Source: Desulfoscipio geothermicus
GTDB lineage: Bacteria; Bacillota; Desulfotomaculia; Desulfotomaculales; Desulfallaceae
Reading direction: 5' to 3'
Length of the DNA: 57,510 nt
Assembly: GCA_016841205.1 (NCBI GenBank)
Contig: JAENZP010000018.1
Coordinates: 1-57,510 of the forward strand
Under the pieces are notes generated by a model. It ran no database searches. It was given only the letters and a program-made list of their open reading frames with translations, and was not told where the DNA came from. Below, one piece after another: positions 3,569-43,917 of the stretch. Within the stretch, counting starts at the first letter, position 1; the number at the start of each line of letters is the position of its first letter. The translations under genes and the position numbers were made by a program.

Positions 3569-5536
3569 ATGAGGTACGCAGAGGCAGGGTATAATTTAGA
3601 AGTCGATTTATCAACTGGAAACATTGAGCGGGTAGAAACCGACCCCAAATTAATGGAGACTCATCTAGGGGGTCAGGGTGTTAACGCCAAGATAATCTGG
3701 GATAGGGTTAAACCCGACACTAAACCCTTTAGTGAAGATAATTTGCTGATCTTCGGCGCCGGTCTTTTGCATGCCACACCTGTTGTCGGATGCAACCGTA
3801 CCAGTGTGAATACCATTAATCCCATGACAGGCATATTTGGACATTCATGTATGGGAGGACATTTCGGTCCGGAACTGAAACATGCCGGTTACGACAGAAT
3901 AATCATTCGCGGCAGAGCCCCCAAACTGGTTTATTTGTATATACACAATGAGAGAGTGGAAATACGTGATGCCTCCCATCTCGCGGGGAAAGGCCCTGGG
4001 GAAACTACAAGTCTCGTTAGAGAAGAGTTAAATGAACCCTTCGCCCAGGTGGCCTGTATCGGTTTGGCCGGTGAAAACAAGGTCTTAACGGCTAGCGTCG
4101 AACACGGTTATTCCAGTGCGTCTCGCGGACCTGGCCCAATCATGGGCGACAAAAGGTTAAAGGCAATTGTTGTTCGTGGAACAAAGGACATTAATATCGC
4201 CCACCCGCAAGAACTCTTTGAGTTATGCCTCAGAATGAAGAAGTGGATTAATGATAGCAATGGCTGCGGGGACTGGATGGCGGTCGATGAGGATGATAGT
4301 TTCCACCACAATAACTTTGCTTGGGGTTATTCGCGTACGCGTATTAAAAATTATTGGAGTGAAGAACTTCAAGACAGATGGACTCACTGGAAATATGACA
4401 ATATGGACAGACAAGCAGGTTGCTATAACTGTCCCAAGGGATGCATTAACGTGATTTCCTGGCCGGGCACGAAGAGATTTGGTTATAAATGCTACGGCAA
4501 AGATACCTATCATATGGCAGCCTTTAAAGAACTGGACTATACTTATGGAATGCTTGGTCAATGTTTGGATTGGGGAGTGGATTCATACTCTACGCCACAA
4601 GCTATTTCCCTTGGCATTGAACTCTACGATAGCGGCGTTTTAACTGACCAGGACATTCCTAATTTCCCGACTGATCCTGGGGAGAGAGTTAAGTTTTTGT
4701 TAGAAAAAATTGTTCACCGGGAAGGGATTGGCGATATACTGGCCAATGGCTCTTGGTGGGCGTCCCGCATGATTCCCGGAGCAGAATCATTTGAACATAA
4801 TACCGTGAAAAAAATGGAACAGTTACCCATCAAGCTGGGCAAACTGAACCCCGCCTATTACCTCATGATAGCTACCGGTGAGAAAATGGCCATCACCCAG
4901 ATTGAAGGTTCATTCCCTCAGGATCCGATTAGGGATCCGGTAAAGAGGAAGGAGTTTGTCGATAATTGGGATGCTGCCCCATATCAAAAATTTAAAGATA
5001 TGTTTATGAACTGGGAAAAGCGTGATCAGATATCTATTGAAGATACTTGCGCACTTACTGACTGGAATGAGGCCATGCACTATATTGATGACTCCACCGG
5101 ACTTTGCGGTTTTGTGTCATCATTTAGGGGGCAGTTTGGCGGTCAGGTTGCATATTCCTTCAATAATGTGCCAGAGCTAATTACACTTGCAACCGGTATG
5201 GAAATGGATAAAGAGGGACTTTGGGAAATCTGCCGCAGGAACCGTGATTTGGTCAGATGCATTAATAATAGATTGGGCATGAGAAGAGTCGATGATGATC
5301 CGCCTAAGGATCACTGGGCGGTAAGAGACCCTGAGCTTGAAGAAAAGTTGCTTGACGCCTACTATGACTTTAGGGGATGGACTAAGGATGCAGTTCCTAC
5401 TAAAGCAGAGTTGCATAGAGTCGGCTTGGACTATGTAGCAGACGAATTGATTCAGTTAGGGATTTTGGATCCTAATGAAGGTACTCCAGCCCAAGAAGCG
5501 GCAAAAGCCGAAGAACAAAAGTCAGGGGGGTGCTAA
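3569..5536 (+). CDS. bamB: BamB-like catalytic subunit of class II benzoyl-CoA reductase (655 aa), divergent copy
   Basis: This is a tungsten aldehyde:ferredoxin oxidoreductase family protein; in the class II reductase this subunit holds W-bis-pterin and a [4Fe-4S] cluster and reduces the aromatic ring of benzoyl-CoA. Cluster ligands are visible at C285-x2-C288-x3-C292 and in the distal LCGF motif. A Cys at about 308 (GYKCYG) aligns with the expected W-ligand Cys. It is the first gene of the complete operon and stops 2 nt before bamC. Compared with the second copy at 53636, it lacks about 13 residues around 230-245, where that copy has SPQEMK, but it keeps a His before FAWG. Substrate could therefore be benzoyl-CoA or a substituted analogue. 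Start: ATG, identical context in both copies. Confidence 0.88.
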   Translation: MRYAEAGYNLEVDLSTGNIERVETDPKLMETHLGGQGVNAKIIWDRVKPDTKPFSEDNLLIFGAGLLHATPVVGCNRTSVNTINPMTGIFGHSCMGGHFGPELKHAGYDRIIIRGRAPKLVYLYIHNERVEIRDASHLAGKGPGETTSLVREELNEPFAQVACIGLAGENKVLTASVEHGYSSASRGPGPIMGDKRLKAIVVRGTKDINIAHPQELFELCLRMKKWINDSNGCGDWMAVDEDDSFHHNNFAWGYSRTRIKNYWSEELQDRWTHWKYDNMDRQAGCYNCPKGCINVISWPGTKRFGYKCYGKDTYHMAAFKELDYTYGMLGQCLDWGVDSYSTPQAISLGIELYDSGVLTDQDIPNFPTDPGERVKFLLEKIVHREGIGDILANGSWWASRMIPGAESFEHNTVKKMEQLPIKLGKLNPAYYLMIATGEKMAITQIEGSFPQDPIRDPVKRKEFVDNWDAAPYQKFKDMFMNWEKRDQISIEDTCALTDWNEAMHYIDDSTGLCGFVSSFRGQFGGQVAYSFNNVPELITLATGMEMDKEGLWEICRRNRDLVRCINNRLGMRRVDDDPPKDHWAVRDPELEEKLLDAYYDFRGWTKDAVPTKAELHRVGLDYVADELIQLGILDPNEGTPAQEAAKAEEQKSGGC

Positions 5537-5538
5537 TT

Positions 5539-6078
5539 GTGGGTGAAAAAGTGAAGAAAATAGTTAAAACAATAAGGGTTGACCTTGATAAATGCAATGG
5601 TTGCCGTGGCTGTGAGATAGCCTGCTCTGCATATCATGCTACGCCGAAATACAGCGCAATGAATCCCTCAAGGTCTCGGATTCGCGTGGTTATGGATCAA
5701 TTTAATGATGAATATGTTCCCATTCGTGCCACTGATTATGCTAAAGCCGGATGTGACGGCAGACGCATTTATACTATTAAAGGGAAGCAATACAGCGAGT
5801 GCAGCTTCTGTGGGACTATCTGCCCGACTAGGGAAATGTTTTTCGATCCCGATTCCGGTCTTCCTCTCCAATGCGATTTGTGTGCGGACGAAAAAGAACC
5901 CTTGTGTACTCAGGCATGTCCACAAGGCTGTCTGACATACGTAGAGATGGAAGTGGAAGAGGAAGACAAGGAAGAAGTAAAGATGGACGAGATGGAATTA
6001 GGAATGAAGGCACTTTTAGATAAATTTGGAGTACAGAAGGTAGCGGATACTTTTAACCGTATAGCACAGAAGGGCTAA
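5539..6078 (+). CDS. bamC: BamC, ferredoxin-like electron-transfer subunit (179 aa)
   Basis: The protein carries four Cys clusters typical of polyferredoxin subunits: CNGCRGCEIAC near residue 20, CSFCGTICP in the middle, then CDLC and CTQACPQGC. In the characterised enzyme BamC pairs with BamB and passes electrons to its cluster. I choose the GTG at 5539, 2 nt after the bamB stop and behind GGGGG, instead of the GTG at 5530, because it gives the same 179-residue length and N-terminus as the second copy at 55608. The C-terminus is unusually rich in Glu and Lys. Confidence 0.88.
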   Translation: MGEKVKKIVKTIRVDLDKCNGCRGCEIACSAYHATPKYSAMNPSRSRIRVVMDQFNDEYVPIRATDYAKAGCDGRRIYTIKGKQYSECSFCGTICPTREMFFDPDSGLPLQCDLCADEKEPLCTQACPQGCLTYVEMEVEEEDKEEVKMDEMELGMKALLDKFGVQKVADTFNRIAQKG

Positions 6079-6109
6079 AACACAATGTGAAAGGAGGGAT
6101 TAAAAAGTC

Positions 6110-7261
6110 GTGCAGACTGAAACCCCCATCAAAGATATTATCCTAGAGATAAAAGAGTACGGCGGAGACCCGGTCAAGTATTGCTTTCAATGCGGCAAAT
6201 GCGATTCTGTCTGTCCCTGGAATAGGGTAAGAAATTTCAGTATGCGCAAGCTAATTCGACAGGCCACCTTTGGCTTGACTGAAATTGAAAATGAAGAGAT
6301 CTGGCGTTGCACTACCTGCGGCAGGTGCGCTGAAGTATGCCCCAGGGAAGTAAAACAGATCCAGGATATGATGGCCGTGCGTCGGATGGCCACGGGGTAT
6401 GGCGTTTTCCCCGAACATATCAAACCTGTGCGTGCCGTAACCGCTGGTCTAGGCGCAGAAGGTAACCCCTTTGGCGAGCCGAGAGCCAACCGGGCAGACT
6501 GGGCCAAGGGCCTGAATGTGAAAACCTTCGAAGAAGGTATGGAAGCCTTATATTTCCCCGGCTGCTACTTGTGCTATGACCCACGGTTAAAGAAGGTCGC
6601 AGCCGCTACAGCCAAAGTCCTCAACGCGGCAGGCGTGGATTACGGTATCCTGGGCGAAGAGGAAAACTGCTGCGGGGAAAGCATTCGCAAGACCGGTAAC
6701 GAAGAAATGTTTAAGGAGCTGGCCAAGGCCAACATTAAAAGCTGGATCGGTCACGGGGTCAAGAAAATAGTGGTTTCTTCCCCGCACTGCTACCATACCT
6801 TTAAGAACGAGTATCCTGAGTTTAATGTGAACTTTGAGATAGTGCATATCTCTGAGTTTATCTGCCAACTGATTAAAGAAGGCAGGCTTCAGATCAATAA
6901 AGAATATGCGAAGAAAATTATCTATCATGACCCCTGTTACCTGGGCCGGCACAATCACATCTATGACGAGCCGCGTGACGTGTTAAAGAATATAGCGGGA
7001 CTAGAACTGGTTGAGTTTGAGGAAAATCGGGTAAACAGTCTCTGCTGCGGCATGGGTGGCGGCAGGATTTGGGTGGATACTCTTATGGCTGATCGCTTCG
7101 TTAACATTAGAATGGAACAAGCCGTTGCCCTTGGGGCCCAGGAGCTTGTTACCACCTGCCCGTACTGCGTCACTAACTTTGAGGATGCAAGAGTAAATAT
7201 GAACTTTGATAACGTCATTGAGATCAAGGACCTTACGGAGGTTCTTGCGGAAGTTATCTAA
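6110..7261 (+). CDS. bamD: BamD, HdrD-like iron-sulfur subunit (383 aa)
   Basis: Two ferredoxin-type motifs near the N-terminus (CFQCGKCDSVCP and CTTCGRCAEVCP) are followed by two CCG domains with NCCGES and SLCCGMGG, the signature of heterodisulfide-reductase HdrD/GlpC-type subunits. It probably links BamBC to the flavin-containing BamE in electron bifurcation or confurcation. The GTG start sits behind AGGAGGG, and the same start is used by the second copy at 56177. The two BamD proteins are nearly identical over most of their length, far more alike than the two BamBs. Confidence 0.9.
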   Translation: MQTETPIKDIILEIKEYGGDPVKYCFQCGKCDSVCPWNRVRNFSMRKLIRQATFGLTEIENEEIWRCTTCGRCAEVCPREVKQIQDMMAVRRMATGYGVFPEHIKPVRAVTAGLGAEGNPFGEPRANRADWAKGLNVKTFEEGMEALYFPGCYLCYDPRLKKVAAATAKVLNAAGVDYGILGEEENCCGESIRKTGNEEMFKELAKANIKSWIGHGVKKIVVSSPHCYHTFKNEYPEFNVNFEIVHISEFICQLIKEGRLQINKEYAKKIIYHDPCYLGRHNHIYDEPRDVLKNIAGLELVEFEENRVNSLCCGMGGGRIWVDTLMADRFVNIRMEQAVALGAQELVTTCPYCVTNFEDARVNMNFDNVIEIKDLTEVLAEVI

Positions 7262-7271
7262 TGGCGGGAAA

Positions 7272-7303
7272 GCTAGACTCGCATAGGATCAATCCTGTCT
7301 AGC
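7272..7303 (+). terminator. hairpin directly after bamD
   Basis: GCTAGAC (7272-7278) pairs with GTCTAGC (7297-7303), and an inner AGGAT/ATCCT pair strengthens it. There is no T-run. It may tune expression between bamD and bamE; the second operon has only 64 nt at this junction. Confidence 0.35.
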
Positions 7304-7485
7304 GATATGTATTCATAATTCATGTAATTTAAGGGCGCTAGTCACCATCCTGTGTACACCAGCCAAATTTGATTATCTAGTCTTCGGAGCTATATGGACA
7401 TTGGCTACGTGGCGGGCATACGGATGAGTGAGGAGGAGTTGCTGGCCGATGTGAGGCTGAACAGAGCCTTAAAGTTGAACTACTG

Positions 7486-7702
7486 CTGATCATCGGTCGC
7501 ATATCGTCCGAGATGCTGCGCAAAGCAGCAAAAATGCAGGTCCCAGGTCCCGATCGATGGTCCGCGGCATGCGCTGGCGAAGAACGCCATTTTGCCAGCC
7601 TGTGATACGGGCATTGCCATGGTTGGACAGGTGCGCGGTGAACGCTTGGCGGTGTTACCCACCCGGAGCGGCTTGGCTGCTCAACAGATTAAGTTTGGCT
7701 GA
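7486..7702 (+). pseudogene. decayed 3' fragment of fdhD
   Basis: One frame gives IIGRISSEMLRKAAKMQVP, and after a +1 shift another gives LAKNA, then TGIAMVGQVRGERLAV and a stop at 7702. These match in order the C-terminal FdhD segments (SGRxSSEMVxKAA and LVGFxRGxRMNVY). FdhD is the sulfurtransferase needed for formate dehydrogenase maturation. The conserved N-terminal part, including the active Cys loop, is absent and the frame is broken, so it is non-functional. A further open stretch at about 7394-7485 is not identifiable. The fragment explains the 495-nt bamD-bamE gap. Confidence 0.65.
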
Positions 7703-7756
7703 CCCGGCCAACCCCGGACAGTACGGGTAAATAAAAACTGATGAGGATTGATAGAT

Positions 7757-10700
7757 ATGGAAAAAGAAATTGAAAGCATTGGGGGAAAGCTTGTTAATTG
7801 TGCAGATAGTAATTTAGGAGATGTCATGATTGTCGGTGGAGGGATTAGTGGTATTCAGGGTGCTCTAGATCTTGCCACTGCGGGATTTAAAGTTTACCTG
7901 GTTGACAAATCGCCCAGCATTGGCGGCCACATGGCCCAGCTGGACAAGACCTTTCCCACTAATGACTGCTCCATGTGTATTGAATCGCCTAAGTTTGTTG
8001 AATGTAACAGGCATCCCAACATAGATATTTTGACCTATACAGAAGTTAAAGATGTAGAAGGGGAAGCAGGAGACTTCACGGTAACACTAATTAAAAAGCC
8101 GAGGTATATTGATGAAACCATATGCACGGGTTGTTCTACCTGTGTAGAATACTGCCCGGTAGAGTACCCTGATCAATTTAACCAAGAGATATCGAAGAAA
8201 AAAGCCGTTCATATATACTTTTCTCAGGCAGTACCATTGATTACTTATATAGATCAAAGCTGTCGTTACCTTAAAGATAAGACATGTACTGTTTGTCAGG
8301 GAGTTTGTAAGAACGGTGCTATAAACTTTAATCAAACACCTGAAAAAGTAGAAGTAAAAGTAGGTACGATAATTCTGGCTCCTGGCTTTGAGCCATATGA
8401 TCCCAAGCTGCGAGAGGAATATCGCTACGGAGAGTTTGAGAACGTAGTTACTAGTCTGGACTATGAACGGTTATTATGTTCCACAGGTCCTTACGAAGGT
8501 GAAATATTACGTGCTACTGACAAGAAGCATCCCCATAAAATCGCTTGGATTCAATGCGTTGGTTCCAGACAGGTTATTCCCGGCGGTAACAGCTATTGTT
8601 CAGCCGTATGCTGCACCTATGCCCAGAAACATGTGATTTTGACTAAAGACCATGATGCAGATGCCGAATGTACGATATTCCATAACGATATTCGTTCCTA
8701 TGGTAAAGATTTTGAGCGCTTTTTCCAGAGAACAGAGAAGCTTCCCGGTGTTCGGTTTGTCAGGGGCTATGCATCAATAATGAAGGAAGACCCGGTTACT
8801 AAGAATGTCACGATAAGATATGCTACCAATGATGAAGGAGTAAAAGAGGAAGAATTTGATATGGTAGTATTATCTATAGGTTTAACCCCGCCTGTTGATG
8901 CCAAGAGTATGGCTGATATATTTGGCATCGAGCTTAATGCGCACGGGTTCTGTAAAAACAATCCGGTTAACCCAATGGAGACCACTCGCAAGGGTATCTT
9001 AATTAGTGGAGCCTTCCAGGGGCCTTTAGACATTCCCGAGTCGGTTGTTACCGCCAGCGGAGCCGGTTCTCAATGTGGTGAAATGCTTGACTTCCGGAGA
9101 GGGGACTTAGCCAAAGAAAGGGTATATCCGTCGGAAAAGGATGTCTCCCAAGAGGAGCCAAGAATTGGCGTATTTGTGTGCCATTGCGGTGCTAATATCG
9201 GCAGGATAGTAAATGTTCCTTCTGCAGTTGAATATGCCTTGACCTTACCTAACGTTGTGCACTCTGAAGATAACCTTTTTATATGTTCTACAGATGCGGC
9301 CAAGCATATAACAAGTTCGATTCTGGAAAAGGGGCTCAATCGCGTGGTTGTCGCGGCCTGCACCCCCAGGACACACGAGCCGCTATTCCGGGACACCCTC
9401 AGAGAAGCTGGAATTAATCAATACTACTTTGAATTTGCCAACATTAGAGAACATTGCTCCTGGGTACACTCTAAGGAACAAGAATCGGCAACCCAAAAGG
9501 CCAAGGATTTAATCCGCATGGCGGTGGCCAGAGTTTCCCATTTGGAGCCCCTGGAAGAATTCGATCTGCCCCTCAACAAGGCAACGTTAGTAGTCGGTGG
9601 TGGCGTGGCTGGTATGACCAGTGCTCTTTCCATCGCTAAACAGGGACACCATGTATACCTGTTGGAAAAGGAACAAGAATTAGGCGGAATCGCACGGAAA
9701 CTTCACTATACCTTAGAAGGACTCGATGTTCAAGCCTATTTGAACGAACTGATTCAAAAGGTATATAAAAACCCCTTAGTCCATATATATACCGATGCCA
9801 AGGTTATCAACGCTGCTGGTTATATAGGTAATTTTGTGACCAAGGTTGAGTCAAAAGGAATGGTCAGCGAAATAAAACATGGAGCGACTGTTATCGCTAC
9901 TGGTGCTGAAGTATATAAACCAACTGAATACCTATATGGCGAAGATGACCGGGTAATGACCCAACTGGAGTTGGAGGAGCAAATTGCTAAAGCAGATGAA
10001 AAGCTGCTTAACTCAGATAATTTAGTGATGATTCAATGTGTAGGCTGCAGAAATGAAGACAGAAATTACTGCAGCCGTGTATGCTGCAGCGATGCGATCA
10101 AGAATGCTCTGAAACTTAAAGAAATAAACCCGGAAATGGATATCTACATTCTCTTTAGAGATATCAGAACCTATGGCTACAAAGAGGATTATTACCGGGA
10201 GGCTGCCGATAAGGATGTCAAGTTCATTCGCTATGAGCCGGAAGATCTGCCTGTGGTAGAACCTGGTGAGGATGATGACGGTAAGGAAGTCTTAAAAGTT
10301 ACCGTGACCGATCCTATTTTAGGTGAAAAGCTTGAACTTGATGCTGATGCAGTAGCTTTGGCTGCCGCCGTTATTCCTGCTGCAAGCAGCACAGACGTAG
10401 CCGCAATGTTCAAGGTATCCTTGAGCCCGGATGGTTTCTTCTCGGAAGCCCACGTCAAATTAAGACCTGTAGATTTTGCTGCGGATGGTGTCTACCTGTG
10501 TGGGATAGCGCATTATCCCAAGCTTCTTTCAGAAACGATTAGCCAGGCATATGGAGCAGCCGGTCGGGTCGTAACGCTTCTCTCAAATGATACGGTTACC
10601 GCGTCCGGTTCTGTTGCAGGAGTGAATGGGGATATTTGTATTTCGTGTGGAGCTTGTATTGCCGCCTGTGCATATGGTGCTATAGAATTTCGTGAGACAC

Positions 10701-10852
10701 CACATGGCAAAAAAGCCACGGTTAATGCTGTGCTCTGTAAAGGAGACGGTCTCTGTAACTCCAAGTGCCCAACAGGGGCTATTTCACTAAAACATTATAC
10801 GTTCGAACAGGTTTATAGCCAAATTGACGCGGCGACTTCTGATACCCTGTAG
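7757..10852 (+). CDS. bamE: BamE, double HdrA-type flavoprotein (1031 aa)
   Basis: The protein contains two HdrA-like halves. The first has an FAD-binding GGGISGIQGALDLA motif near residue 30 and cluster motifs NDCSMC, CTGCSTCVEYCP and CTVCQGVC. The second has VFVCHCGANIG, a second dinucleotide fold (VVGGGVAGMTSALS), and ends with two [4Fe-4S] motifs (CISCGACIAAC and CKGDGLCNSKCP). It is the presumed bifurcating flavin subunit joining BamD, BamF and the NADH module. The ATG at 7757 matches the start context of the second copy at 57393 (MEKE), so the TTG at 7748 is less likely. Length is about twice a single HdrA. Confidence 0.9.
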   Translation: MEKEIESIGGKLVNCADSNLGDVMIVGGGISGIQGALDLATAGFKVYLVDKSPSIGGHMAQLDKTFPTNDCSMCIESPKFVECNRHPNIDILTYTEVKDVEGEAGDFTVTLIKKPRYIDETICTGCSTCVEYCPVEYPDQFNQEISKKKAVHIYFSQAVPLITYIDQSCRYLKDKTCTVCQGVCKNGAINFNQTPEKVEVKVGTIILAPGFEPYDPKLREEYRYGEFENVVTSLDYERLLCSTGPYEGEILRATDKKHPHKIAWIQCVGSRQVIPGGNSYCSAVCCTYAQKHVILTKDHDADAECTIFHNDIRSYGKDFERFFQRTEKLPGVRFVRGYASIMKEDPVTKNVTIRYATNDEGVKEEEFDMVVLSIGLTPPVDAKSMADIFGIELNAHGFCKNNPVNPMETTRKGILISGAFQGPLDIPESVVTASGAGSQCGEMLDFRRGDLAKERVYPSEKDVSQEEPRIGVFVCHCGANIGRIVNVPSAVEYALTLPNVVHSEDNLFICSTDAAKHITSSILEKGLNRVVVAACTPRTHEPLFRDTLREAGINQYYFEFANIREHCSWVHSKEQESATQKAKDLIRMAVARVSHLEPLEEFDLPLNKATLVVGGGVAGMTSALSIAKQGHHVYLLEKEQELGGIARKLHYTLEGLDVQAYLNELIQKVYKNPLVHIYTDAKVINAAGYIGNFVTKVESKGMVSEIKHGATVIATGAEVYKPTEYLYGEDDRVMTQLELEEQIAKADEKLLNSDNLVMIQCVGCRNEDRNYCSRVCCSDAIKNALKLKEINPEMDIYILFRDIRTYGYKEDYYREAADKDVKFIRYEPEDLPVVEPGEDDDGKEVLKVTVTDPILGEKLELDADAVALAAAVIPAASSTDVAAMFKVSLSPDGFFSEAHVKLRPVDFAADGVYLCGIAHYPKLLSETISQAYGAAGRVVTLLSNDTVTASGSVAGVNGDICISCGACIAACAYGAIEFRETPHGKKATVNAVLCKGDGLCNSKCPTGAISLKHYTFEQVYSQIDAATSDTL

Positions 10853-10881
10853 AGGTTGATCTATAGAAGTTTAACTAAAAA

Positions 10882-10913
10882 GGGGACAGACCTCCTTTTG
10901 GAGGAATGTCCCC
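10882..10913 (+). terminator. intercistronic hairpin between bamE and bamF
   Basis: GGGGACA (10882-10888) pairs with TGTCCCC (10907-10913), and an inner CCTCC/GGAGG pair closes a TTTT loop. There is no T-run, so it more likely stabilises an mRNA end or attenuates than fully terminates. Confidence 0.45.
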
Positions 10914-10960
10914 AATGAAAGAGCCATGCCGAGATTACTAACTAAAGAGGTGGGATAAGA

Positions 10961-11728
10961 GTGGCTACAGGAACTGATTCTAAACCAAGAATTCTAGGTT
11001 TCGTATGCAACTGGTGAGCATACGGTGCTGCTGATTTGTCTGGAGTTTCCAGGCAACAATATGCTACTTACATTAGGCTTATCCGTATGATGTGCTCTGG
11101 CCGGGTTGACATGTCCTTTATATTCCGTGCTTTTGCCAACGGAAATGACGGGGTGTTTGTCGGCACTTGCCATCTTGGTGACTGCCATTATGTTACGCAT
11201 GGAAATTACGATGCACTAAATATGGTGATGCTGAGTAAAAAAATACTTGCGCACCTGGGTCTAAATCCCGAGAGAATAAAATTAGAACATGTATCTGCCG
11301 GTGAAGGACTACGTTTTGCTGAAGCTATGAATGAATTCAGCCAGACGATGAAAAACTTGGGACTACTTGGCCAATCTGAGGGAATAGACCAAGATGTACT
11401 TAAGTTGAAACTTCAAACAGTTAATGAATTAATCCCTTACATCAGAGTAGTGCAAAATGAGAGACTGAAAGTGCGTTTTGATACTGTAGAACAATATGAA
11501 GAATTCTATGCTAGTAAAGAATTAGAAAAAATATTTAATGAATTAATTGGAGACAAACTAACCCTAGGTCAAATTATTTCACTGCTACGTGAAAAACCGC
11601 TTGCCCCGGGAGAAATGGCGGCGATTTTAGGTCTAACCTCGTCTGAAGTTTCAAGACAACTTAATAGTTCAGCAATGCAAGGATTAGTTAAATACGAGGA
11701 AAGCCAAAAGTGCTTCGCTCTCGCCTAA
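10961..11728 (+). CDS. bamF: BamF, MvhD-like selenoprotein subunit (255 aa, UGA = Sec)
   Basis: From the GTG at 10961 the frame reads into CNW, then UGA at 11015-11017, then AYGAADLSGVSR. MvhD/HdrF-type proteins have CNWCSYxxAD at this place, so the UGA replaces a conserved Cys and must be selenocysteine; no plausible start lies downstream that keeps the motif. Further ligands are visible at MCSGRVD, and TCHLGDCHY (a [2Fe-2S] site in the family). With Sec the length is 255 residues, normal for a BamF with its C-terminal extension. AAAGAGGTGGG precedes the GTG. It would pass electrons between BamE and the NADH module. A conventional gene caller will truncate it to start at 11036. Confidence 0.88.
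11015..11056 (+). promoter_or_regulatory. selenocysteine UGA codon and SECIS-like hairpin
   Basis: The UGA is at 11015-11017. Starting 18 nt later, TTGTCTGG (11036-11043) pairs with CCAGGCAA (11049-11056), 8 bp including one G-U, around a 5-nt loop AGTTT. This is the distance and form expected of a bacterial SECIS bound by SelB: a stem closed by G-C pairs and a small loop containing G and U. selA, selB and selC are not in the window. Confidence 0.75.
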
Positions 11729-11781
11729 GGTGAAAGGTTAGACGGTGGATTAGGGGAAAGAAGGAGGTCAGAACAGTCGCT

Positions 11782-12234
11782 ATGAATAACGATAAAATCG
11801 AGCAGATTTTAAATGAACACCAGGGACAAGCCGGTGCACTGATTAAAGTATTAATGGAGATACAGGAAGAGAATAAATGGCTGCCGAGAGAAGTACTAGT
11901 ACAGGTTAGCGAGAAATTAGAGGTGCCCTTAAGCCGGGTACTGCGCATAGCTACCATTTATAAAACATTTAGTTTAACTCCTAAAGGGCGTTATCAAGTT
12001 AATATATGTACGGGTACTGCCTGTCAGGTTCGAGGCTCGCAGCAGGTTCTCGAAGAGGTGCAAAAACTGACTGGAATTAAACCCGGCGAAACGGACCCGG
12101 ATATGAAGTTCAGCCTGGAAACCGTAAACTGCCAGGGTTGCTGTTCTTTAGGTCCGCTAGTAGAAATCGATGGAAAGACTCACGGTAAGACGGCGCCTGC
12201 CGAGATAGCAGACGCGTTAAAAAAATATGAGTGA
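11782..12234 (+). CDS. bamG: BamG, NuoE-like [2Fe-2S] subunit (150 aa)
   Basis: This is a thioredoxin-like [2Fe-2S] protein of the NuoE/HydC family. The cluster Cys are in CTGTACQVRGS and, about 35 residues later, CQGCCSLGP. It should pair with BamH in the NADH-oxidising or NAD+-reducing module. The ATG at 11782 follows AAGGAGG at a longish spacing of 14 nt. bamH begins 9 nt after its stop. Confidence 0.88.
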   Translation: MNNDKIEQILNEHQGQAGALIKVLMEIQEENKWLPREVLVQVSEKLEVPLSRVLRIATIYKTFSLTPKGRYQVNICTGTACQVRGSQQVLEEVQKLTGIKPGETDPDMKFSLETVNCQGCCSLGPLVEIDGKTHGKTAPAEIADALKKYE

Positions 12235-12243
12235 GGGAACGTT

Positions 12244-13929
12244 ATGCCACGTATAAATTCAACTGCGGAGTTGGAAGAACTCAGGAAAGGTATCTTAGCA
12301 CAAAAAGATCCCAATAAGCCTTGTATTTCCGTATGTGCGGGAATCGCCTGTCTTGGTTCCGGCAATGCTCAAGTGATCAGCGCTTTTGAAGAAGAAATAA
12401 AAAAACAGTCGTTGGATGCAAAAGTTGATCTTATAGCAACCGGCTGTCATGGATTTTGTGAAAAAGGGCCGATCGTTGTTATCTATCCTGAGGAAATTTG
12501 TTATTTGGAAGTAACACCGGAAGATGTACCGGAAATTGTCTCTCAGACTGTAGTTGGTAAGCAAGTGATTGACCGATTAATTTATACCGATCCCAACACC
12601 GGTACAAAAGCAGCGCATCAATCTGAAATACCTTTCTACAAGAACCAGTCGCGATTGCTGATTGGTAATAGCCAGAAGATTAATCCCAAGAGTATTGATG
12701 ATTACCTGGCGATGGGCGGTTATTCAGCGTTATCCAAAGCGCTTTTTGAAATGAGCCCCGAAGGTGTTCTGGATGAAATAAAGAAAGCCAACTTGCGCGG
12801 CCGGGGCGGCGGTGGATTTCCTGCCGGCTCGAAGTGGGAAACCACTCGCAATGCACAGCCCGGAGTAGAAAAGTATGTTATCGTAAACGCTCACGAAGGT
12901 GAGCCTGGGGCGTTTATGGACAGAGCCCTATTTACAGGGAATCCGCATCTTATATTGGAAGGCTTGATCATCGGTGCCTATGCCATCGGCTCTCATCAGG
13001 GGTTTATTTACACCCGACATGATACTCCCGTTCTAAGAAAGAATCTTGATCTTGCCCTTACCCAGGCGAAGGAATACGGGCTTTTAGGTGACAATATACT
13101 TGGTTCCGGATTCAGCTTTAATGTTGAGGTACATCTTGATGTAGGGATATTCGTTTCCGGCGAATCAAGCGCATTAATGAGGTCCATAGAAGGGATGCCA
13201 CCGGAGCCAAGGCCCAAATATATCCGCACTTCTGTAACTGGTATTTGGGATCGACCCAGTAACCTGAACAACGTGGAAACCTGGGCCAACGTGCCTCAGA
13301 TAATTAATCAGGGGTACGAGTGGTACAGCAGTATCGGGACCGAGCGGAGCAAGGGAACAAAACTCATATCCCTATCAGGTAATATAGTAAACTCCGGAGT
13401 CGTAGAAGTTCCCATGGGTACTTCGCTCAGAGAGATTGTCTTCGACTTTGGCGGTGGAATTCCAAACGGAAAGAAACTTAAAGCGATACACTTTGGAGGA
13501 CCAATGGGAGGTACTATCCCCGAAAGTCTTATCGACACCCCACTTGATTTTGATGAACTGTCAAAACTAGGTGCTTCACTGGGTGCAGGCGACATGCTGG
13601 TATTGGATGAAGATACCTGTATGGTTGAAATGGACAGGTTATTCCTTGACTTTTTAGCTGGTGAATCCTGCGGCAAATGTGTGCCCTGCCGTGAAGGCAT
13701 GAGGCAAATGCTTAAGATTCTCACCAATATGACCCAAGGTGAAGGAAAAGAGGGGGACATCGAGCTTTTGGAGGAAATATCCGGGGTAGTTGGCGAAGCG
13801 GCCCTTTGTTCGCTGGGCAGGAGTATCCACAAACCGTTAATTAGCATGTTAAAATATTTTAGAGATGAGTTTGAGGCTCACATCAAGGAGAAGCGCTGCC
13901 CGGCTAATGTCTGCAAAGAGCTGAACTAG
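12244..13929 (+). CDS. bamH: BamH, NuoF-like NADH/FMN subunit (561 aa)
   Basis: An N-terminal [2Fe-2S] thioredoxin-like domain (CAGIACLGSG and TGCHGFCEKGP, within residues 20-90) is fused to the NuoF core. The core has the Gly-rich NADH-binding segment (LRGRGGGGFPAGSKW), the FMN region (NAHEGEPGAF), and a [4Fe-4S] site SCGKCVPCREG near residue 475. It is expected to exchange electrons with NAD(H). Start: ATG with GAGGGAA upstream. Confidence 0.9.
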   Translation: MPRINSTAELEELRKGILAQKDPNKPCISVCAGIACLGSGNAQVISAFEEEIKKQSLDAKVDLIATGCHGFCEKGPIVVIYPEEICYLEVTPEDVPEIVSQTVVGKQVIDRLIYTDPNTGTKAAHQSEIPFYKNQSRLLIGNSQKINPKSIDDYLAMGGYSALSKALFEMSPEGVLDEIKKANLRGRGGGGFPAGSKWETTRNAQPGVEKYVIVNAHEGEPGAFMDRALFTGNPHLILEGLIIGAYAIGSHQGFIYTRHDTPVLRKNLDLALTQAKEYGLLGDNILGSGFSFNVEVHLDVGIFVSGESSALMRSIEGMPPEPRPKYIRTSVTGIWDRPSNLNNVETWANVPQIINQGYEWYSSIGTERSKGTKLISLSGNIVNSGVVEVPMGTSLREIVFDFGGGIPNGKKLKAIHFGGPMGGTIPESLIDTPLDFDELSKLGASLGAGDMLVLDEDTCMVEMDRLFLDFLAGESCGKCVPCREGMRQMLKILTNMTQGEGKEGDIELLEEISGVVGEAALCSLGRSIHKPLISMLKYFRDEFEAHIKEKRCPANVCKELN

Positions 13930-13961
13930 CGAGAACTATAACCTAAAGGGAGCAAAGAAAA

Positions 13962-14579
13962 ATGAGTGAAATTATTATACAGATTGACGGAAGAGAAATT
14001 GCAGCAGATGAAGGGATGACCGTTTTAGAAGCAGCGCAAAAGGCTGGTATATCGATTCCGACACTGTGCTACCTTGAGACATTAGAGCCTTATGGTGCTT
14101 GCCGCCTTTGCTCAGTGGAAGTAGAAGTGCGCGGTCGGACCAATCTCGTTGCTGCCTGCCTTTATCCGGTGGAAAAGGATTTGATCGTCAGAACCAGGAC
14201 GGAGAAGGTAGATAGAATTCGTAAAGTGATTTTGGAGCTACTGCTGGCTCATGCTCCAGAGGCCAGGGGATTGAAGATGCAGGAATATGCTGAAGAATAT
14301 GGAGCAGACAAAAACCGTTATGAAAAAGAACCTTCATTTTGCATTCAATGTGGTCTATGTGTAAGATACTGTGCTGAGATCAAAAAGAAGAGCGCTATTT
14401 GTTTTGTTAACAAAGGGCCATCGCGTGAAATACAATTTATTCCTGAAATAGCCTCAAAGGAGTGCTGGAACTGTACTGAATGTTTCCCGCTTTGTCCGAC
14501 AGAGTATCTACAAGGCGTTTTTGTTTTAACTAAAGCCCTGGCGTTCCCCTCAACTCCTATGGGGCCATCAGCAGAGTAA
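13962..14579 (+). CDS. bamI: BamI, NuoG-N-terminus-like iron-sulfur subunit (205 aa)
   Basis: A [2Fe-2S] ferredoxin domain (CYLETLEPYGACRLC near residues 35-50) is followed by two [4Fe-4S] motifs (CIQCGLCVRYC and CWNCTECFPLCP). This matches the N-terminal part of NuoG/HydA-type subunits, without the molybdopterin domain. It completes the NuoEFG-like module and is the last gene of the operon; a strong terminator follows at 14648. Confidence 0.88.
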   Translation: MSEIIIQIDGREIAADEGMTVLEAAQKAGISIPTLCYLETLEPYGACRLCSVEVEVRGRTNLVAACLYPVEKDLIVRTRTEKVDRIRKVILELLLAHAPEARGLKMQEYAEEYGADKNRYEKEPSFCIQCGLCVRYCAEIKKKSAICFVNKGPSREIQFIPEIASKECWNCTECFPLCPTEYLQGVFVLTKALAFPSTPMGPSAE

Positions 14580-18838: not shown

Positions 18839-18927
18839 GCAGACTTTTTGCAGTTTGTTTTCCCACCGGTTCAGTTGGGTGGTGTGTGTCGCATATTCCA
18901 ATTCTTAAAGGGGGGGATGTATTAGAA

Positions 18928-19674
18928 ATGAGACTGCAGGGGAAAGTTGCCATTGTGACGGGTGCTCGCCAGGGGATTGGCGAAGGTGTGGCTTTGGGCC
19001 TGGCCAAGGAAGGTGCGAAGGTAGTTGTAGTTAGCCGTAGCATCAACGAGGATAGTGAAATTTGTCAGAACCTGAGGGACGCTGGAGCTGAGTATCTAGC
19101 TCTGGCCGTAGATGTGGGCGATCGTGACGCAGTGCAGAAGATGGTAGATGACACCATGGCTAAATTCGGAAGAGTTGATTTTCTCTTCAACAACGCTGGG
19201 GTAAGCATACCCGCCATGTTGTGGAAAATGAGTCCCCAACAATGGGATGATGTAATTAGGATTAATCTTACCGGTACATTTAACTGCATCCAGGCTGTTT
19301 CCGGGCCGATGATGGAGCAGAAGAGCGGTTCGATACTTAACGTTACCTCTTCCGCGGGTCTGATTGGCACCATCGGGCAGGTTAACTATACTGCCTCCAA
19401 GGGCGGGGTTACTGCATTATCTAAATCCTGTGCAAAAGAACTGGCGAAATATAATATCAGGGTTAATGTAATTGCACCTATGGTCGTAACGCCAATGACC
19501 AGGAAAATTACCACTGATCCTAAGTTAGCTCCTAAATATTTAGAACGCATACCGCTGGGTAGGTTCTGCGAACCTGAAGAGGTTGCCCCGACGGTAGTAT
19601 TCTTTGCATCTGAAGATTCATCTTATATAACCGGCCAGATCCTCTGTGTGGACGGCGGCATGGTTATGCTATAA
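18928..19674 (+). CDS. SDR-family dehydrogenase (248 aa)
   Basis: This is a short-chain dehydrogenase with the N-terminal TGARQGIGEG cofactor loop, the NNAG motif, catalytic Ser (NVTSSAG), the YTASK catalytic Tyr/Lys pair and the C-terminal VDGG. The closest functional guess is an NAD(P)-dependent 3-hydroxyacyl-CoA dehydrogenase, perhaps for 3-hydroxypimeloyl-CoA made by BamA, or a BbsC/BbsD-like enzyme. I use the ATG at 18928 behind a run of G; the frame is open from a GTG at 18886, but that start has no ribosome site. The thiolase gene follows 41 nt later. Confidence 0.88.
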   Translation: MRLQGKVAIVTGARQGIGEGVALGLAKEGAKVVVVSRSINEDSEICQNLRDAGAEYLALAVDVGDRDAVQKMVDDTMAKFGRVDFLFNNAGVSIPAMLWKMSPQQWDDVIRINLTGTFNCIQAVSGPMMEQKSGSILNVTSSAGLIGTIGQVNYTASKGGVTALSKSCAKELAKYNIRVNVIAPMVVTPMTRKITTDPKLAPKYLERIPLGRFCEPEEVAPTVVFFASEDSSYITGQILCVDGGMVML

Positions 19675-19715
19675 TATGCGAACCGAAAAAGTATCTATCG
19701 CGGGGAGGTTCATTT

Positions 19716-20873
19716 ATGTCCAAAGATGTAGCCATAATTGGCGTTGGTCAAAGTTATTTTACTAGGGAATATCCGGGCTCGATCAGAGAGCTGGCTTTTG
19801 ATGCATGGAGAGAAGCCGCACAAGACGCCGGCATAACCGCTAAAGATATTAGTGCCTCGGTTATTTGCTCAGCTCCGGAATACGATGCACAGCGTAGTCC
19901 CGCCGGAGTAATTTCCGAGTACCTCGGATTTGTTCCCGCACCGACATTTGCCATCGAATCAGTGTGCTCCTCCAGCACCTCTGGCCTGAGAGCGGCCTAT
20001 AGTATGGTCAAAGCAGGTTTACACGATATCGTTGCCGTTGTCGGTTTTCAAAAAATGTCGGAAATTACTTCCGCTGATTCTCAGGAGAGAATGGGCCGCG
20101 GTTCCGACATTCAGTGGGAATCCCCATTTGGTACCATGATGCCTGGTTATTACGCTTCGCACGCGCAGGCGCATTTTAAACAGTACGGCTCTACTGAAAG
20201 AGATCTGGCCATGATCAGGGCTAAGTCCACCAAATATGGCGCACTGAATGATAGAGCGGTATACAGGAAAGTTGTTACCGTGGAAGAATGTTTAGCAAAA
20301 CCGGTTGTGACCAGCCCGCTGAAAGTGTTTGATTGCTGCGGCAATGCCGATGGCTCTTCCTGTGTAATTGTTGCTAATGCGGACAGGGCTAAGGAATTAT
20401 GCAAGAAACCGGTTTGGTTTATGGGATTAGGTTCCGGTTCAGCCAGCGTAACGCTGACCGGCCGCAGCAATTGTTACGGTTTAACAGCCGCTATGAAGGC
20501 TGCTCAAGATGCCTATGCCATGGCTGGTATTACTGCCCAGGATGTTAAGGTAGCGGAAGTACACGACTGCTTTACTATCGCTGAATTGATGGCTTACGAA
20601 GCTCTTGGCTTTGCCGAGCTAGGTAAAGGCGTAGAACTGGTACGCGAAGGGCAAAATGAGATAGGCGGCAAAATACCTGTGAACGTGGATGGCGGTTTGC
20701 TGTCCAAGGGTCATCCCATCGGCGCTACCGGTGGTTCGCAGGTGCGTACCATTGTCCTTCAGCTGCGTGATGAAGCCGGTCCCATGCAGGTGCCGGGACA
20801 ACCTGAAATCGGGCTAGTTCATAATGTTGGCGGCGTAGGGCTTTACGCTAACGTAACCATTCTGGGGAGGTAG
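19716..20873 (+). CDS. SCP2/BbsB-type thiolase (385 aa)
   Basis: This is a thiolase of the SCP-x type: nucleophile Cys in ESVCSSSTSG (about residue 87), an HDCF motif and a GHPIGATGGSQ motif near the C-terminus. Partners of this type need a DUF35 zinc-ribbon protein, which is the next gene, 5 nt away. Two roles fit: cleavage of 3-oxopimeloyl-CoA after BamA and the SDR, or of a benzoylsuccinyl-CoA-like substrate as in BbsAB of toluene degraders. The sequence alone does not decide. Start: ATG with GGGGAGG upstream. Confidence 0.88.
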   Translation: MSKDVAIIGVGQSYFTREYPGSIRELAFDAWREAAQDAGITAKDISASVICSAPEYDAQRSPAGVISEYLGFVPAPTFAIESVCSSSTSGLRAAYSMVKAGLHDIVAVVGFQKMSEITSADSQERMGRGSDIQWESPFGTMMPGYYASHAQAHFKQYGSTERDLAMIRAKSTKYGALNDRAVYRKVVTVEECLAKPVVTSPLKVFDCCGNADGSSCVIVANADRAKELCKKPVWFMGLGSGSASVTLTGRSNCYGLTAAMKAAQDAYAMAGITAQDVKVAEVHDCFTIAELMAYEALGFAELGKGVELVREGQNEIGGKIPVNVDGGLLSKGHPIGATGGSQVRTIVLQLRDEAGPMQVPGQPEIGLVHNVGGVGLYANVTILGR

Positions 20874-20878
20874 AAAAT

Positions 20879-21289
20879 ATGAGTTTTAAAAAATTCGGAC
20901 GTAAAAGTTTTGCTTCCCAGACCAAGGTTGATGCTTTTATTGATTACCTTGAAAAGGGCGAAGTAAGGGGCACACAATGCAAATCCTGTGGGACAAAGTT
21001 CTTTCCTCCCCGGGCAGATTGTGATCAATGCTTAAGTAACGATATGGATTGGTTCAAAATCGAAGGAGTCGGAACTCTGGTAACTTATACCAAACAAGGT
21101 TTTGCTCCTACCGGCTTTGAGAAGGATGTACCATACACCACCGCCATGGCAATTTTTGACGGCGTGCAAATATTTGGCCGGCTTGACGGCAGCATTCCTG
21201 ATGACGAAGTTGCCATTGGCATGAATGTGGGCGTCAGAACACTGCAATACGACGACGGTCAGTTGTCTTATGAATTCATAAAAGCATAA
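20879..21289 (+). CDS. DUF35 OB-fold zinc-ribbon protein, thiolase partner (136 aa)
   Basis: A rubredoxin-like zinc ribbon (CKSCG, then CDQC about 14 residues later) precedes an OB-fold domain, the DUF35 layout. Such proteins form complexes with SCP2-type thiolases, shown for BbsA-BbsB. It starts 5 nt after the thiolase stop and GGGGAGG of the thiolase tail serves as ribosome site, so the two are translationally coupled. Confidence 0.88.
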   Translation: MSFKKFGRKSFASQTKVDAFIDYLEKGEVRGTQCKSCGTKFFPPRADCDQCLSNDMDWFKIEGVGTLVTYTKQGFAPTGFEKDVPYTTAMAIFDGVQIFGRLDGSIPDDEVAIGMNVGVRTLQYDDGQLSYEFIKA

Positions 21290-21417
21290 CAACGATTTTT
21301 TACTACCTTAAACAGGGGGGTGGTAAAAGCTGGCATGACTAATACCAGCACAATGTTGGAATAATGCTTACTAGAGGTAAAAAATTAAAAAAAAATTATT
21401 TAATAGGAGGATGACTA

Positions 21418-22551
21418 ATGGATCTGAATAAATGGCCCCGCCAAACCGATGTAAAGAATCATGAAATATTTGGTGATGAACATTTTGGTACCGAAGCACC
21501 GTGCGTTATTTATGAAAAAAGACCTATCATTGACCCCAAAACCAAACAAGAAGTTCCTGGGCTGTATACCGCATGGCTGATCCTGAATAACCCCGCTCAG
21601 TTTGGTTCCTATACCACCGAAATGACTAAAGGCGTTATCGCCGGTTGCGCAAAAGCTTCCTCAGACCGCTCCGTAGTAGCCCTAATCTTTACCGGCACAG
21701 GCGACAAAGCGTTCTGTACTGGTGGTAACACTGTAGAATACGCTGAATACTACAGCAGCAACCCCAGTGAATACATGCAGTACATGGACCTGTTCAACGG
21801 CATGGTTGACGGTCTGCTGGATTGCAAAAAGCCGGTTATCTGCCGCGTAAACGGCATGCGCGTAGCCGGTGGCCAGGAAATTGGTATGGCTTGTGACCTC
21901 GCTATTTCTTCTGACCTCGCTATTTATGGCCAGGCTGGTCCCAGACACGGTTCCGCACCGGTTGGCGGCAGCGCTGACTTTATCCACTGGAACATCGGTA
22001 TGGAAAGAGGCATGTGGAACTGCATTTCCTGCGAAATGTGGAGTGCCTATAAAATGCAGATGGTTGGTATGATTACAAAAGCCATTCCCGTACTCAAAGT
22101 CGATGGCAAATTTATCCCCAACCCGGCAGTTATTACCGATAAAATGGTTGATGAAAACGGCCAGATCTGTTACGGTGAAAATAAGACCGGCGAAGAAGCA
22201 GCTGCAGCCAAAGCATTAATCAAGACTGCTGAAGTTGACTTCTCAATGCTGGATGCTGAAGTAGAAAAACTAGTCTGGACTTTCACCAACCTGTTCCCCA
22301 ACTGCTTACAGATGTCCATCGATATGATGAGACAGAAGAAGAAATTCTTCTGGGATATGAACAAACTGGCATATCGTCATTGGCTCGGCACCAACATGAG
22401 CAGTGAAGCTTATCTCGGCTTCAACGCTTTCGCCACCAAGAAACTGACCGGTAAAGACACCATTGACTTTATTAAGTATCGCCAGCTGCTGGCTGAGGCT
22501 CATGTGTTCGATCAAGAACTGATCGACGCAGTTTTGGGGCCCCGTAAATAA
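21418..22551 (+). CDS. bamA: 6-oxocyclohex-1-ene-1-carbonyl-CoA hydrolase (377 aa)
   Basis: This is a crotonase-family protein of the size and sequence type of BamA/Oah, the ring-opening hydrolase that forms 3-hydroxypimeloyl-CoA and serves as marker of anaerobic aromatic degradation. Oxyanion-hole regions are visible (FCTGGN near residue 103 and the GMRVAGGQEIGMACDLA segment). Length is normal for BamA. It has a strong Shine-Dalgarno (AATAGGAGG, 7-8 nt before ATG), a separate leader of 128 nt and a hairpin after it, so it may be expressed on its own as well as with neighbours. Confidence 0.93.
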   Translation: MDLNKWPRQTDVKNHEIFGDEHFGTEAPCVIYEKRPIIDPKTKQEVPGLYTAWLILNNPAQFGSYTTEMTKGVIAGCAKASSDRSVVALIFTGTGDKAFCTGGNTVEYAEYYSSNPSEYMQYMDLFNGMVDGLLDCKKPVICRVNGMRVAGGQEIGMACDLAISSDLAIYGQAGPRHGSAPVGGSADFIHWNIGMERGMWNCISCEMWSAYKMQMVGMITKAIPVLKVDGKFIPNPAVITDKMVDENGQICYGENKTGEEAAAAKALIKTAEVDFSMLDAEVEKLVWTFTNLFPNCLQMSIDMMRQKKKFFWDMNKLAYRHWLGTNMSSEAYLGFNAFATKKLTGKDTIDFIKYRQLLAEAHVFDQELIDAVLGPRK

Positions 22552-22600
22552 TCATATAACTTTAAGCAGATGCTTTAATATTTGCCAAATTAATATAGGT

Positions 22601-22624
22601 GGAGAGGCGGGGCTTAGCCTCTCC
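22601..22624 (+). terminator. hairpin after bamA
   Basis: GGAGAGGC (22601-22608) pairs with GCCTCTCC (22617-22624); a T-rich, A-interrupted tail follows at 22630-22641. Confidence 0.6.
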
Positions 22625-22644
22625 GCCTGTTATTATTTATTGTG

Positions 22645-22660
22645 CGGTTGTTACTTTGCA
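22645..22660 (+). promoter_or_regulatory. weak candidate sigma-54 promoter of the first bamR
   Basis: The site reads CGGTTG-TTACT-TTGCA, with GG (22646-22647) and GC (22658-22659) 10 bp apart and a good -12 box, but a poor -24 box. It lies just after the bamA hairpin and about 33 nt before the start codon. Confidence 0.35.
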
Positions 22661-22692
22661 GCGTAGTCTGCGATTGAACATGGGGGTATAGT

Positions 22693-23457
22693 ATGAGTTA
22701 TAAATTTATCAAAACAAATAACGCGGATGGATTAATTACCATAACCCTGGACAGCCCGCCACTTAATGTTTTGACTATTCCTATGATGGAGGAATTAGCT
22801 GACGCATTTGTGTGGGCCAAAGGGCAAGCCGGAAATATTATCCTCTTAGATGCAGCAGGGAAAGCCTTTTCAGCCGGTGTAGACGTTGCTGATCATACAC
22901 CTGATAAAGTAAACAAAATGATTGAGGTTTTCGATAGTATCTTCCATAGCATGTATGACAACGAGAAGCCTATTGTGTGCGCCGTTAATGGCGCGGCTCT
23001 GGGTGGCGGCTATGAACTAGTGCTTTTTGCCGACATGGTAGTGGCTTCGGAAAAAGCAAAGCTGGGGCAGCCGGAAATTCAGGTTGGCGTATTCCCACCC
23101 TTGGCTTCATACATGCTTCCCAGGCTAACCTCTTTACCCCATGCATATGAATTGATTTTAAGCGGTGATGTCATCAATGCTGCCAGGGCTGATAAGCTAG
23201 GGTTGGTGAACGCTGTTTTGCCTGCTGATAACTTTGCTGAAGGCGTTAAGGAATTTTGTAAAAAGTTCATGTCTCTGAGTCCGGTAGTGCTGGCGTACAC
23301 CAAAAAGGCCATAAAGGCAGGATTAAATAAGGGCTTTATTGAAGGACTTAAGGCAATTGATGATGTATACCTGAATGAATTAATGCCTACCGCTGACGCC
23401 AAGGAAGGCTTAAGTGCCTTTATGGAAAAACGCAAACCGGTATGGCAGGGTAAATAA
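22693..23457 (+). CDS. bamR: cyclohexa-1,5-diene-1-carbonyl-CoA hydratase (254 aa), copy 1
   Basis: This crotonase-family protein is of the Dch/BamR type: it adds water to the dienoyl-CoA made by benzoyl-CoA reductase. The oxyanion-hole segments are AFSAGVDVADHT and NGAALGGGYELVL. It lies between bamA and bamQ, the usual company. A paralogue of the same length and clearly similar sequence is at 26664-27428, with a near-identical translation start context (GAACATGGGGGTATA before ATGAG). The start ATG at 22693 follows GGGGG. Confidence 0.9.
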   Translation: MSYKFIKTNNADGLITITLDSPPLNVLTIPMMEELADAFVWAKGQAGNIILLDAAGKAFSAGVDVADHTPDKVNKMIEVFDSIFHSMYDNEKPIVCAVNGAALGGGYELVLFADMVVASEKAKLGQPEIQVGVFPPLASYMLPRLTSLPHAYELILSGDVINAARADKLGLVNAVLPADNFAEGVKEFCKKFMSLSPVVLAYTKKAIKAGLNKGFIEGLKAIDDVYLNELMPTADAKEGLSAFMEKRKPVWQGK

Positions 23458-23505
23458 TATTTAAAATTATTGAAATATATTAAAATTTTAAGGAGGTTTA
23501 AGAAT

Positions 23506-24636: not shown

Positions 24637-24689
24637 TTAGATAGAGTATATTTTTTATTGGTTATGTAAATATTTATAGTTAGGAGCAG

Positions 24690-24717
24690 GCCCCCGATAT
24701 TATATTATAACGGGGGC
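24690..24717 (+). terminator. terminator after bamQ
   Basis: GCCCCCG (24690-24696) pairs with CGGGGGC (24711-24717) and TTGTTTATT follows. A very similar hairpin ends the second bamR at 27463. Confidence 0.75.
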
Positions 24718-24788
24718 TTGTTTATTATAAGAATAATTAATTAAAAATATAAGAATAGTGAATATATTAGGAAATTAGGTGATTGCTG

Positions 24789-43878: not shown

Positions 43879-43917
43879 TTACTTTAAGAAAGTTAAGTCT
43901 AACCCCGAGGTGATGGT

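Follow-up and report, generated by a model that had tools for sequence, protein, structure and literature searches.

An in-frame UGA very probably encodes selenocysteine in the bamF gene of Desulfoscipio geothermicus

We analyzed a 57,510-nucleotide stretch of the Desulfoscipio geothermicus genome (contig JAENZP010000018.1 of assembly GCA_016841205.1), here called the window, in which bamF appears, with a probability of about 95%, to be a selenoprotein gene: SelB and Sec-tRNA would act at a stem-loop to place selenocysteine (Sec) at residue 19 of a 255-residue BamF. We document the reading frame of bamF, the codon column among its relatives, a conserved RNA element, the Sec machinery of the genome and the gene cluster in which bamF lies. 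This would correct the reading of one electron-carrying subunit of benzoyl-CoA reductase, the enzyme with which Gram-positive anaerobes break the aromatic ring using neither ATP nor oxygen, and it would give the BamF family a conserved SECIS element with a probable basal stem in addition to the general apical-hairpin model. A Sec/Cys pair of BamF proteins in one genome would also offer a natural means to test why the complex uses selenium.

On the forward strand, bamF (10961-11728) runs in translation from a GTG at 10961 to a TAA at 11726-11728, and the UGA at 11015-11017 is the sole internal stop in its 255 codons. The UGA is residue 19, the second Cys position of a CxxC motif, and the motif in BamF reads CNW-U-AYGAAD. 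The earlier note had placed the GTG start and the UGA splitting CNW-x-AYGAAD at these coordinates, which translation bears out, and it had also claimed that ordinary annotation misses the first 25 residues. This is indeed the case, since the in-frame UGA is taken as a stop and the mechanical ORF starts at TTG 11036, giving 230 residues instead of 255. The protein consists of an MvhD-like domain and a C-terminal winged-helix-like domain. PF02662 (FlpD/MvhD) matches residues 11-134 with 158.1 bits against a curated cut-off of 22.3, which makes BamF a member of that family, and PF01022 (ArsR-type HTH) matches residues 204-244 with 24.7 bits, just above its cut-off of 22. The best solved matches of an AlphaFold2 model of BamF (pLDDT 89.8, pTM 0.89) are the MvhD chains 8rvu_F (1.0 Å, 50% identity, TM 0.96 by target length) and 5odh_D, while the C-terminal winged-helix-like part has weak fold matches to SmtB and to Z-alpha/Z-beta domains, with E about 0.05-0.07.

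To follow residue 19 through the family, relatives of BamF were taken from the best 80 of 320, plus at most 30 loci each from the matches listed for the family and for the phylum. Limited to E of at most 1e-20 and cleared of identical stretches, they gave 140 rows, a sample biased towards the query's kin, in which the row label HTH means that a match reaches residue 240 and nothing more. Among the matches listed, these 140 non-identical rows have Cys at residue 19 in 115 cases, UGA in 24 and Ser (AGT) in one, and none of the 140 has UAA or UAG there; we refer to the first two groups as Cys rows and Sec rows. The first tblastn set, duplicates included, had 114 CxxC, 20 Cxx-stop and 1 CxxS among 135 stretches spanning residues 16 and 19, and a 38-row BamF alignment has C16, C/U19, C45, C70 and C75 invariant. 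The UGA at 11015-11017 (forward strand), which this codon column indicates is read as Sec at the second Cys of CxxC, had been said to coincide exactly with the Cys of MvhD-like proteins, and the Cys rows among the matches listed agree. The alignment with relatives that had been proposed as a check was run and places the UGA on a Cys/Sec column, so that bamF has its UGA at the Cys column of its homologues, as a bacterial selenoprotein test looks for.

A reading in which the UGA is a real stop, with bamF either decaying or starting at TTG 11036 to give 230 residues without the CxxC, is very improbable to us. The mechanical ORF does begin at that TTG, and the genome does contain decayed bamF-like pieces with internal stops (C35:82397-82600 and C35:83974-84108), but the 255 codons hold no other stop, the UGA is shared by 24 non-identical relatives among the matches listed without ever being UAA or UAG, and the TTG start would remove two of the five invariant Cys columns. 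The part before the UGA also argues against it. Among the matches listed, the three closest orthologues retain the start and differ there in 0-2 of 17 codons, all synonymously. The remaining 12 long Sec rows among these matches carry 3-8 synonymous and 3-8 non-synonymous changes in the same part. All 16 long Sec rows among the matches listed have a start codon at the bamF start position, GTG in 10 and ATG in 6. A purine-rich sequence at 10946-10954 (forward strand), AGAGGTGGG, is the probable ribosome-binding site of the GTG start, and in orthologues purine-rich stretches also lie upstream of the aligned start.

We place the SECIS element of bamF at 11018-11064 (forward strand) using published rules, folding and conservation. 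Its apical stem in the window, 18 nt after the UGA, has 8 pairs including one G-U (11036-11043/11049-11056, forward strand) and closes the 5-nt loop AGUUU (11044-11048, forward strand) with a G at 11045; the folding program also closes an A-U, giving 9 pairs and the loop GUU. The bSECIS model, as given in the available part of PMC13188914, has an upper stem of 4-16 bp, a loop of 3-9 nt with a G within loop positions 1-2, 16-37 nt from UGA to loop and an MFE of at most -7.5 kcal/mol. The bamF element lies within these bounds with either 8 bp and AGUUU or 9 bp and GUU, 26-27 nt from the UGA, and its 26-nt hairpin folds at -11.2 kcal/mol. The z of the fold is -1.35 for a 54-nt stretch, -1.64 for a 48-nt stretch and -3.36 for a 26-nt piece that was chosen after the hairpin had been seen. 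Across both strands of the window, 50 of 1783 UGAs satisfy the rule in a contiguous-stem form, 13 of 1783 have a hairpin as strong as that of bamF, bamF included, and under a looser rule 35 of 1783 reach at least 9 pairs. Taken alone, the single bamF hairpin is weak evidence for Sec, and since one hairpin is not rare among UGAs, the case for a SECIS element is carried by conservation.

Among the matches listed, CUGG-NGUNU-CCAG is present in 24 of 24 Sec rows. Literal CUGG/CCAG is found in all 24 Sec rows and in none of the 115 Cys rows, and the inner four pairs with a G at loop position 2 are found in 24/24 Sec rows, 2/60 long Cys rows and 0/55 other Cys rows (all among the matches listed), a contrast that rests on one or two changes since the Sec rows cluster on the tree. 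Synonymous redraws produce the hairpin in 7.6% per row. The conserved apical core of 4 bp (11040-11043/11049-11052, forward strand) is invariant across the Sec rows and therefore shows no covariation. The 8-bp stem with a 5-nt loop, 18 nt after the UGA, that the earlier note described is present in the window, but only its inner 4 bp are invariant, and the outer four pairs are complete in 6 of the 24 Sec rows among the matches listed. As a conserved unit the 8-bp stem was rejected, with 75.6% of cells paired and 51 of 500 shuffles as high; an apical variant with a bulged A after CCAG pairs 89.8% of cells, compared with 75.6% for the plain 8-pair stem.

The trees used 58 of the 140 rows, with identity of at least 44% and coverage to residue 190 or beyond. 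In a quick tree with the Sec column masked, the 24 Sec rows, labelled Bacillota, Thermodesulfobacteriota and Myxococcota, fall on one side of a branch with an SH-aLRT of 95. With the hairpin columns removed, a careful tree requires two changes, with a single change in 0% of 200 bootstrap trees, and one independent Sec/Cys pair was found on the tree.

Codon use after the UGA also differs between the groups. Among the matches listed, Sec rows have GCT at Ala27 in 16/16, TCC at Ser30 in 24/24, AGA or AGG at Arg31 in 24/24 and CAA at Gln33 in 24/24, while the same codons appear in 5/22, 11/34, 1/34 and 12/34 of 34 near Cys rows; over all Cys rows among these matches, AGA or AGG at Arg31 occurs in 30 of 115. 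Base composition explains part of these preferences. GC exceeds 0.5 in 24 of the 34 near Cys rows. The other 10, with lower GC, have CAA in 9, TCC in 5 and AGR in 1, whereas TCC, AGA and CAA each occur in all 4 Sec rows whose GC is at least 0.5.

Directly 3′ of the UGA, GCAUA can pair with UAUGC to form a probable basal stem of 5 bp (11018-11022/11060-11064, forward strand). Of the 24 Sec rows among the matches listed, 15 form all five pairs of this stem, 7 form four and 2 form three, compared with three pairs and never more in each of the 34 near Cys rows among them, and its mean of 4.5 pairs in Sec rows compares with 3.8 in synonymous redraws. Two basal pairs show two-sided changes (C-G to U-A and A-U to G-C) in four cells across 21 distinct rows, and one basal pair is broken in 7 of the 21. 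Shuffles equalled the cell count in 2 of 500 and the pair count in 124 of 500, fractions that are not probabilities because the rows are related. RNAalifold did not choose the basal stem: it pairs columns 4-6 locally with columns 15-17, plus the four apical pairs only. The folds of the window divide in the same way, with the 54-nt stretch forming a local hairpin like that of RNAalifold and the 48-nt stretch forming the basal stem. To judge from the sequences, the basal stem probably belongs to the SECIS element, in competition with the local hairpin.

The genome of the window (3.38 Mb in 36 contigs, 99.94% complete) holds selA (C7:57026, 519.6 bits), selB (C7:59950, a SelB wing domain with 78.6 bits in a 676-codon frame), tRNA-Sec (C6:81111, 68.6 bits; called by ARAGORN as Sec with anticodon tca) and selD (C24:126799, 404 bits), the last with one UGA inside selD itself. 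The tRNA-Sec model matched further places, among them C21:173360 at 48.3 bits, just above the cut-off of 47. A search for selA, selB and selC had been suggested as a check, and all three were found with selD in addition, the set of four that a second bacterial selenoprotein test looks for in a genome. This complete machinery also bears on whether the UGA could be decoded as an ordinary amino acid through a changed code or a suppressor tRNA, a reading that shares the readthrough implied by the conservation. We give it even less credence than a real stop, since the Sec machinery is complete, the next gene, bamG, terminates with a UGA at 12232, and the hairpin accompanies the UGA rows. A sequencing or assembly error that made the UGA from a Cys or Trp codon, for which nothing was found beyond the general possibility, is negligible because the same UGA is carried by three other genomes of the genus (91-94% protein identity) and by more distant phyla.

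With selenocysteine as the preferred reading of the UGA, SelB with Sec-tRNA would bind the stem-loop 3′ of the codon and Sec would be inserted as residue 19, yielding the 255-residue BamF. Sec19 would then replace the second Cys of the CxxC, at or beside a [2Fe-2S] cluster. In relatives, ElpC/MvhD carries a [2Fe-2S] cluster close to HdrA's bifurcating FAD (available part of PMC12350162), and by this likeness the cluster of BamF would lie near the bifurcating FAD of its HdrA-type partner BamE. Sec19 could thereby tune low-potential electron transfer towards BamB.

Sec-BamF is well supported here, and the Sec-MvhD family itself is already known. The purified Geobacter metallireducens complex reportedly contains selenocysteine. 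As the earlier note had stated, MvhD-like selenoproteins occur in other anaerobes: in the parts available, PMC13188914 lists PF02662 proteins with CxxU as a selenoprotein family, and PMC1794560 includes a single FrhD in its count of G. metallireducens selenoproteins and enters FrhD and HdrA for Desulfotomaculum reducens in its table of families that sister organisms have lost. A UGA-interrupted mvhD and an interrupted gene that is there named bamE are described for D. multivorans in the accessible portion of PMC5109826. BamF shares the CxxU motif in PF02662 with the Sec-MvhD/VhuD/FrhD family as far as these sources describe it, but it is longer by about 120 residues and ends in a winged-helix-like part; solved MvhD chains have 129-141 residues. 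The bamF of G. metallireducens, Gmet_2083, lies inside bamB-H and is given as 'hydrogenase, delta subunit; HTH mo' in the available part of PMC1924859. For Desulfotomaculum gibsoniae, the available part of PMC4148979 gives bamB in six copies and bamCDEFGHI in at least two; within the genus of the window, the two long bamF copies of genome G012 both carry UGA. The main text of PMC4148979 does not contain the word selenocysteine, and the word start 'selen' occurs in it twice, both times in names. In the open-licence literature, no paper on Sec-BamF of Sporotomaculum or Desulfoscipio was found by title.

Among the best 80 of 320 loci, the nearest named bamF loci are those of Sporotomaculum syntrophicum (94%) and two Desulfoscipio geothermicus MAGs (91-92%), with a Desulfotomaculum MAG (68%) as a further one. 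The 16 genomes of the family hold at least 8 long UGA copies of BamF in 7 genomes and at least 3 long Cys copies in 3. Of 398 genomes sampled from the phylum, 9, the window's own included, have a match with E of at most 1e-45. These account for 18 matches among those listed, 12 with UGA and 6 without, so distributed that each of the 9 genomes has at least one UGA copy, and all 12 UGAs occupy the CxxU column.

A Cys form of BamF is also present in the genome of the window. The stretch of C35 at L146:5702-10863 encodes BamF in a Cys form (65%), another copy of BamE (75%) and an MvhD-ferredoxin protein that likewise has Cys (55% over 190 residues). The 19.5 kb around this module gave no bamB match, and bamG and bamH are represented there by distant relatives only (30-43%) on the other strand. 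Degenerate, UGA-bearing bamF pieces flank the Cys bamF, with the place of the Sec codon reading CKW-stop in one and CNL-stop in the other, and Sporotomaculum syntrophicum (L076) has a similar degenerate piece. This arrangement suggests that a Sec bamF copy is decaying next to a Cys copy. In Methanococcus maripaludis, Sec and Cys isoforms are reportedly swapped with selenium supply (available part of PMC11097638). That the Sec-BamF of the window and the Cys-BamF with the second BamE on C35 are likewise interchangeable electron-input modules, swapped by selenium supply, is a speculative idea that we consider unlikely. In another MvhD of this genome (C6:110175-110555, L002), the UGA falls on a conserved Cys column other than the CxxU of BamF, reading G-U-HPGDCH. 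Because the two columns differ, two Sec positions seem to be in use within the one family in this genome.

The bam setting claimed in the earlier note is real, with the solved benzoyl-CoA reductase 4z3w as the best match of both BamB proteins. All on the forward strand, the cluster around bamF comprises bamB1, a catalytic subunit paralogue (3569-5536, 694.5 bits to 4z3w_A); bamC1, a 4Fe-4S protein assigned by position and by an order conserved elsewhere, with Fer4 matches below the Pfam cut-offs (5530-6078); the HdrB/C-like bamD1 with CCG and Fer4_8 domains (6110-7261); bamE, an HdrA-like flavoprotein with FAD and Fer4 domains and 934.6 bits to NF040770 HdrA2, below the cut-off of 1100 (7748-10852); the NuoE-like bamG (11782-12234, PF01257); the NuoF-like bamH (12244-13929, PF01512 and PF10589); and the 2Fe-2S and 4Fe-4S protein bamI (13962-14579, PF13510 and PF12838). 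This bamB-I cluster spans 3569-14579, and a second bamB-C-D set lies at the contig end (53636-57328, forward strand; BamB2 955.2 bits to 4z3w_A). The contig thus holds two bamBCD sets and one bamEFGHI set, which distinguishes it from the bam cluster of G. metallireducens. Between the two sets, BamB is 46-47% identical, BamC 49% and BamD 88.5%. BamB1 of the bamE-I cluster is more distant than BamB2 from Geobacter BamB, a hint that the aryl-CoA substrate differs or that bamD underwent gene conversion.

The complete C-D-E-F-G-H-I order is found at three Sec loci outside Bacillota (L080, L055, L062) and at 12 Cys loci (L057, L060, L061, L063, L065, L066, L067, L070, L073, L075, L079, L087), the remaining loci being too short or showing part only. 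All of these Cys loci except L087 come from proteobacteria-labelled MAGs with complete bamC-I and Cys-BamF, under labels such as Rhodocyclaceae, Comamonadaceae, Rhodoferax and Azonexus. Proteobacteria such as Rhodocyclaceae are associated more with ATP-dependent benzoyl-CoA reductases.

The bamE-bamF gap has a strong hairpin at 10882-10913 (forward strand), GGGGACA..CCUCC-UUUU-GGAGG..UGUCCCC, with -24.8 kcal/mol and a z of -5.6, despite which the repeat finder gave none in this gap; promoter-like sites in the gap also did not exceed the number in shuffled sequence, and no terminator-like site was found there. Variants of the hairpin with paired changes stand before bamF in the three closest genomes, and L021 has such variants twice. 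The pattern GGGGACA-N8-30-TGTCCCC is present at 42 places across 7 genomes of the genus, with 2-14 in each, compared with 10 for the reversed pattern, and its second place in the window's genome is, by eye, between acsB-like and acsC-like genes, as in two relatives. The hairpin looks like a dispersed intra-operon palindrome that is unconnected to Sec. In the bamD-bamE gap, 7465-7602 is a degenerate stretch with a weak FdhD/NarQ match (E 7.8e-4, below the cut-off), and two other pieces have no such match. This stretch may be a decayed fdhD, since a proteomics table in the available part of PMC13101534 has FdhD between BamD and BamE.

Ten UGA-interrupted frames of the window pass the length filter and, by eye, only bamF has a conserved motif across the UGA. 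A formate-dehydrogenase-like frame at 875-2929 has no internal stop. Downstream of the cluster, Pfam identifies at 18886-27428 (forward strand) a short-chain dehydrogenase, a thiolase, an OB-fold protein, a zinc alcohol dehydrogenase, an adenine-deaminase-like protein and three enoyl-CoA-hydratase-family proteins, genes that probably include steps following ring reduction. At 42576-50381, hypD, an AIRS-domain (hypE-like) gene and hypF lie beside the small and large subunits of a [NiFe] hydrogenase, whose large subunit (48957-50381) is of the Cys form, with Cys and not Sec in its C-terminal DPC motif. A molybdenum/tungsten cofactor riboswitch (RF01055, 64 bits) lies at 51685-51821 on the forward strand, about 1.8 kb upstream of the second bamBCD set.
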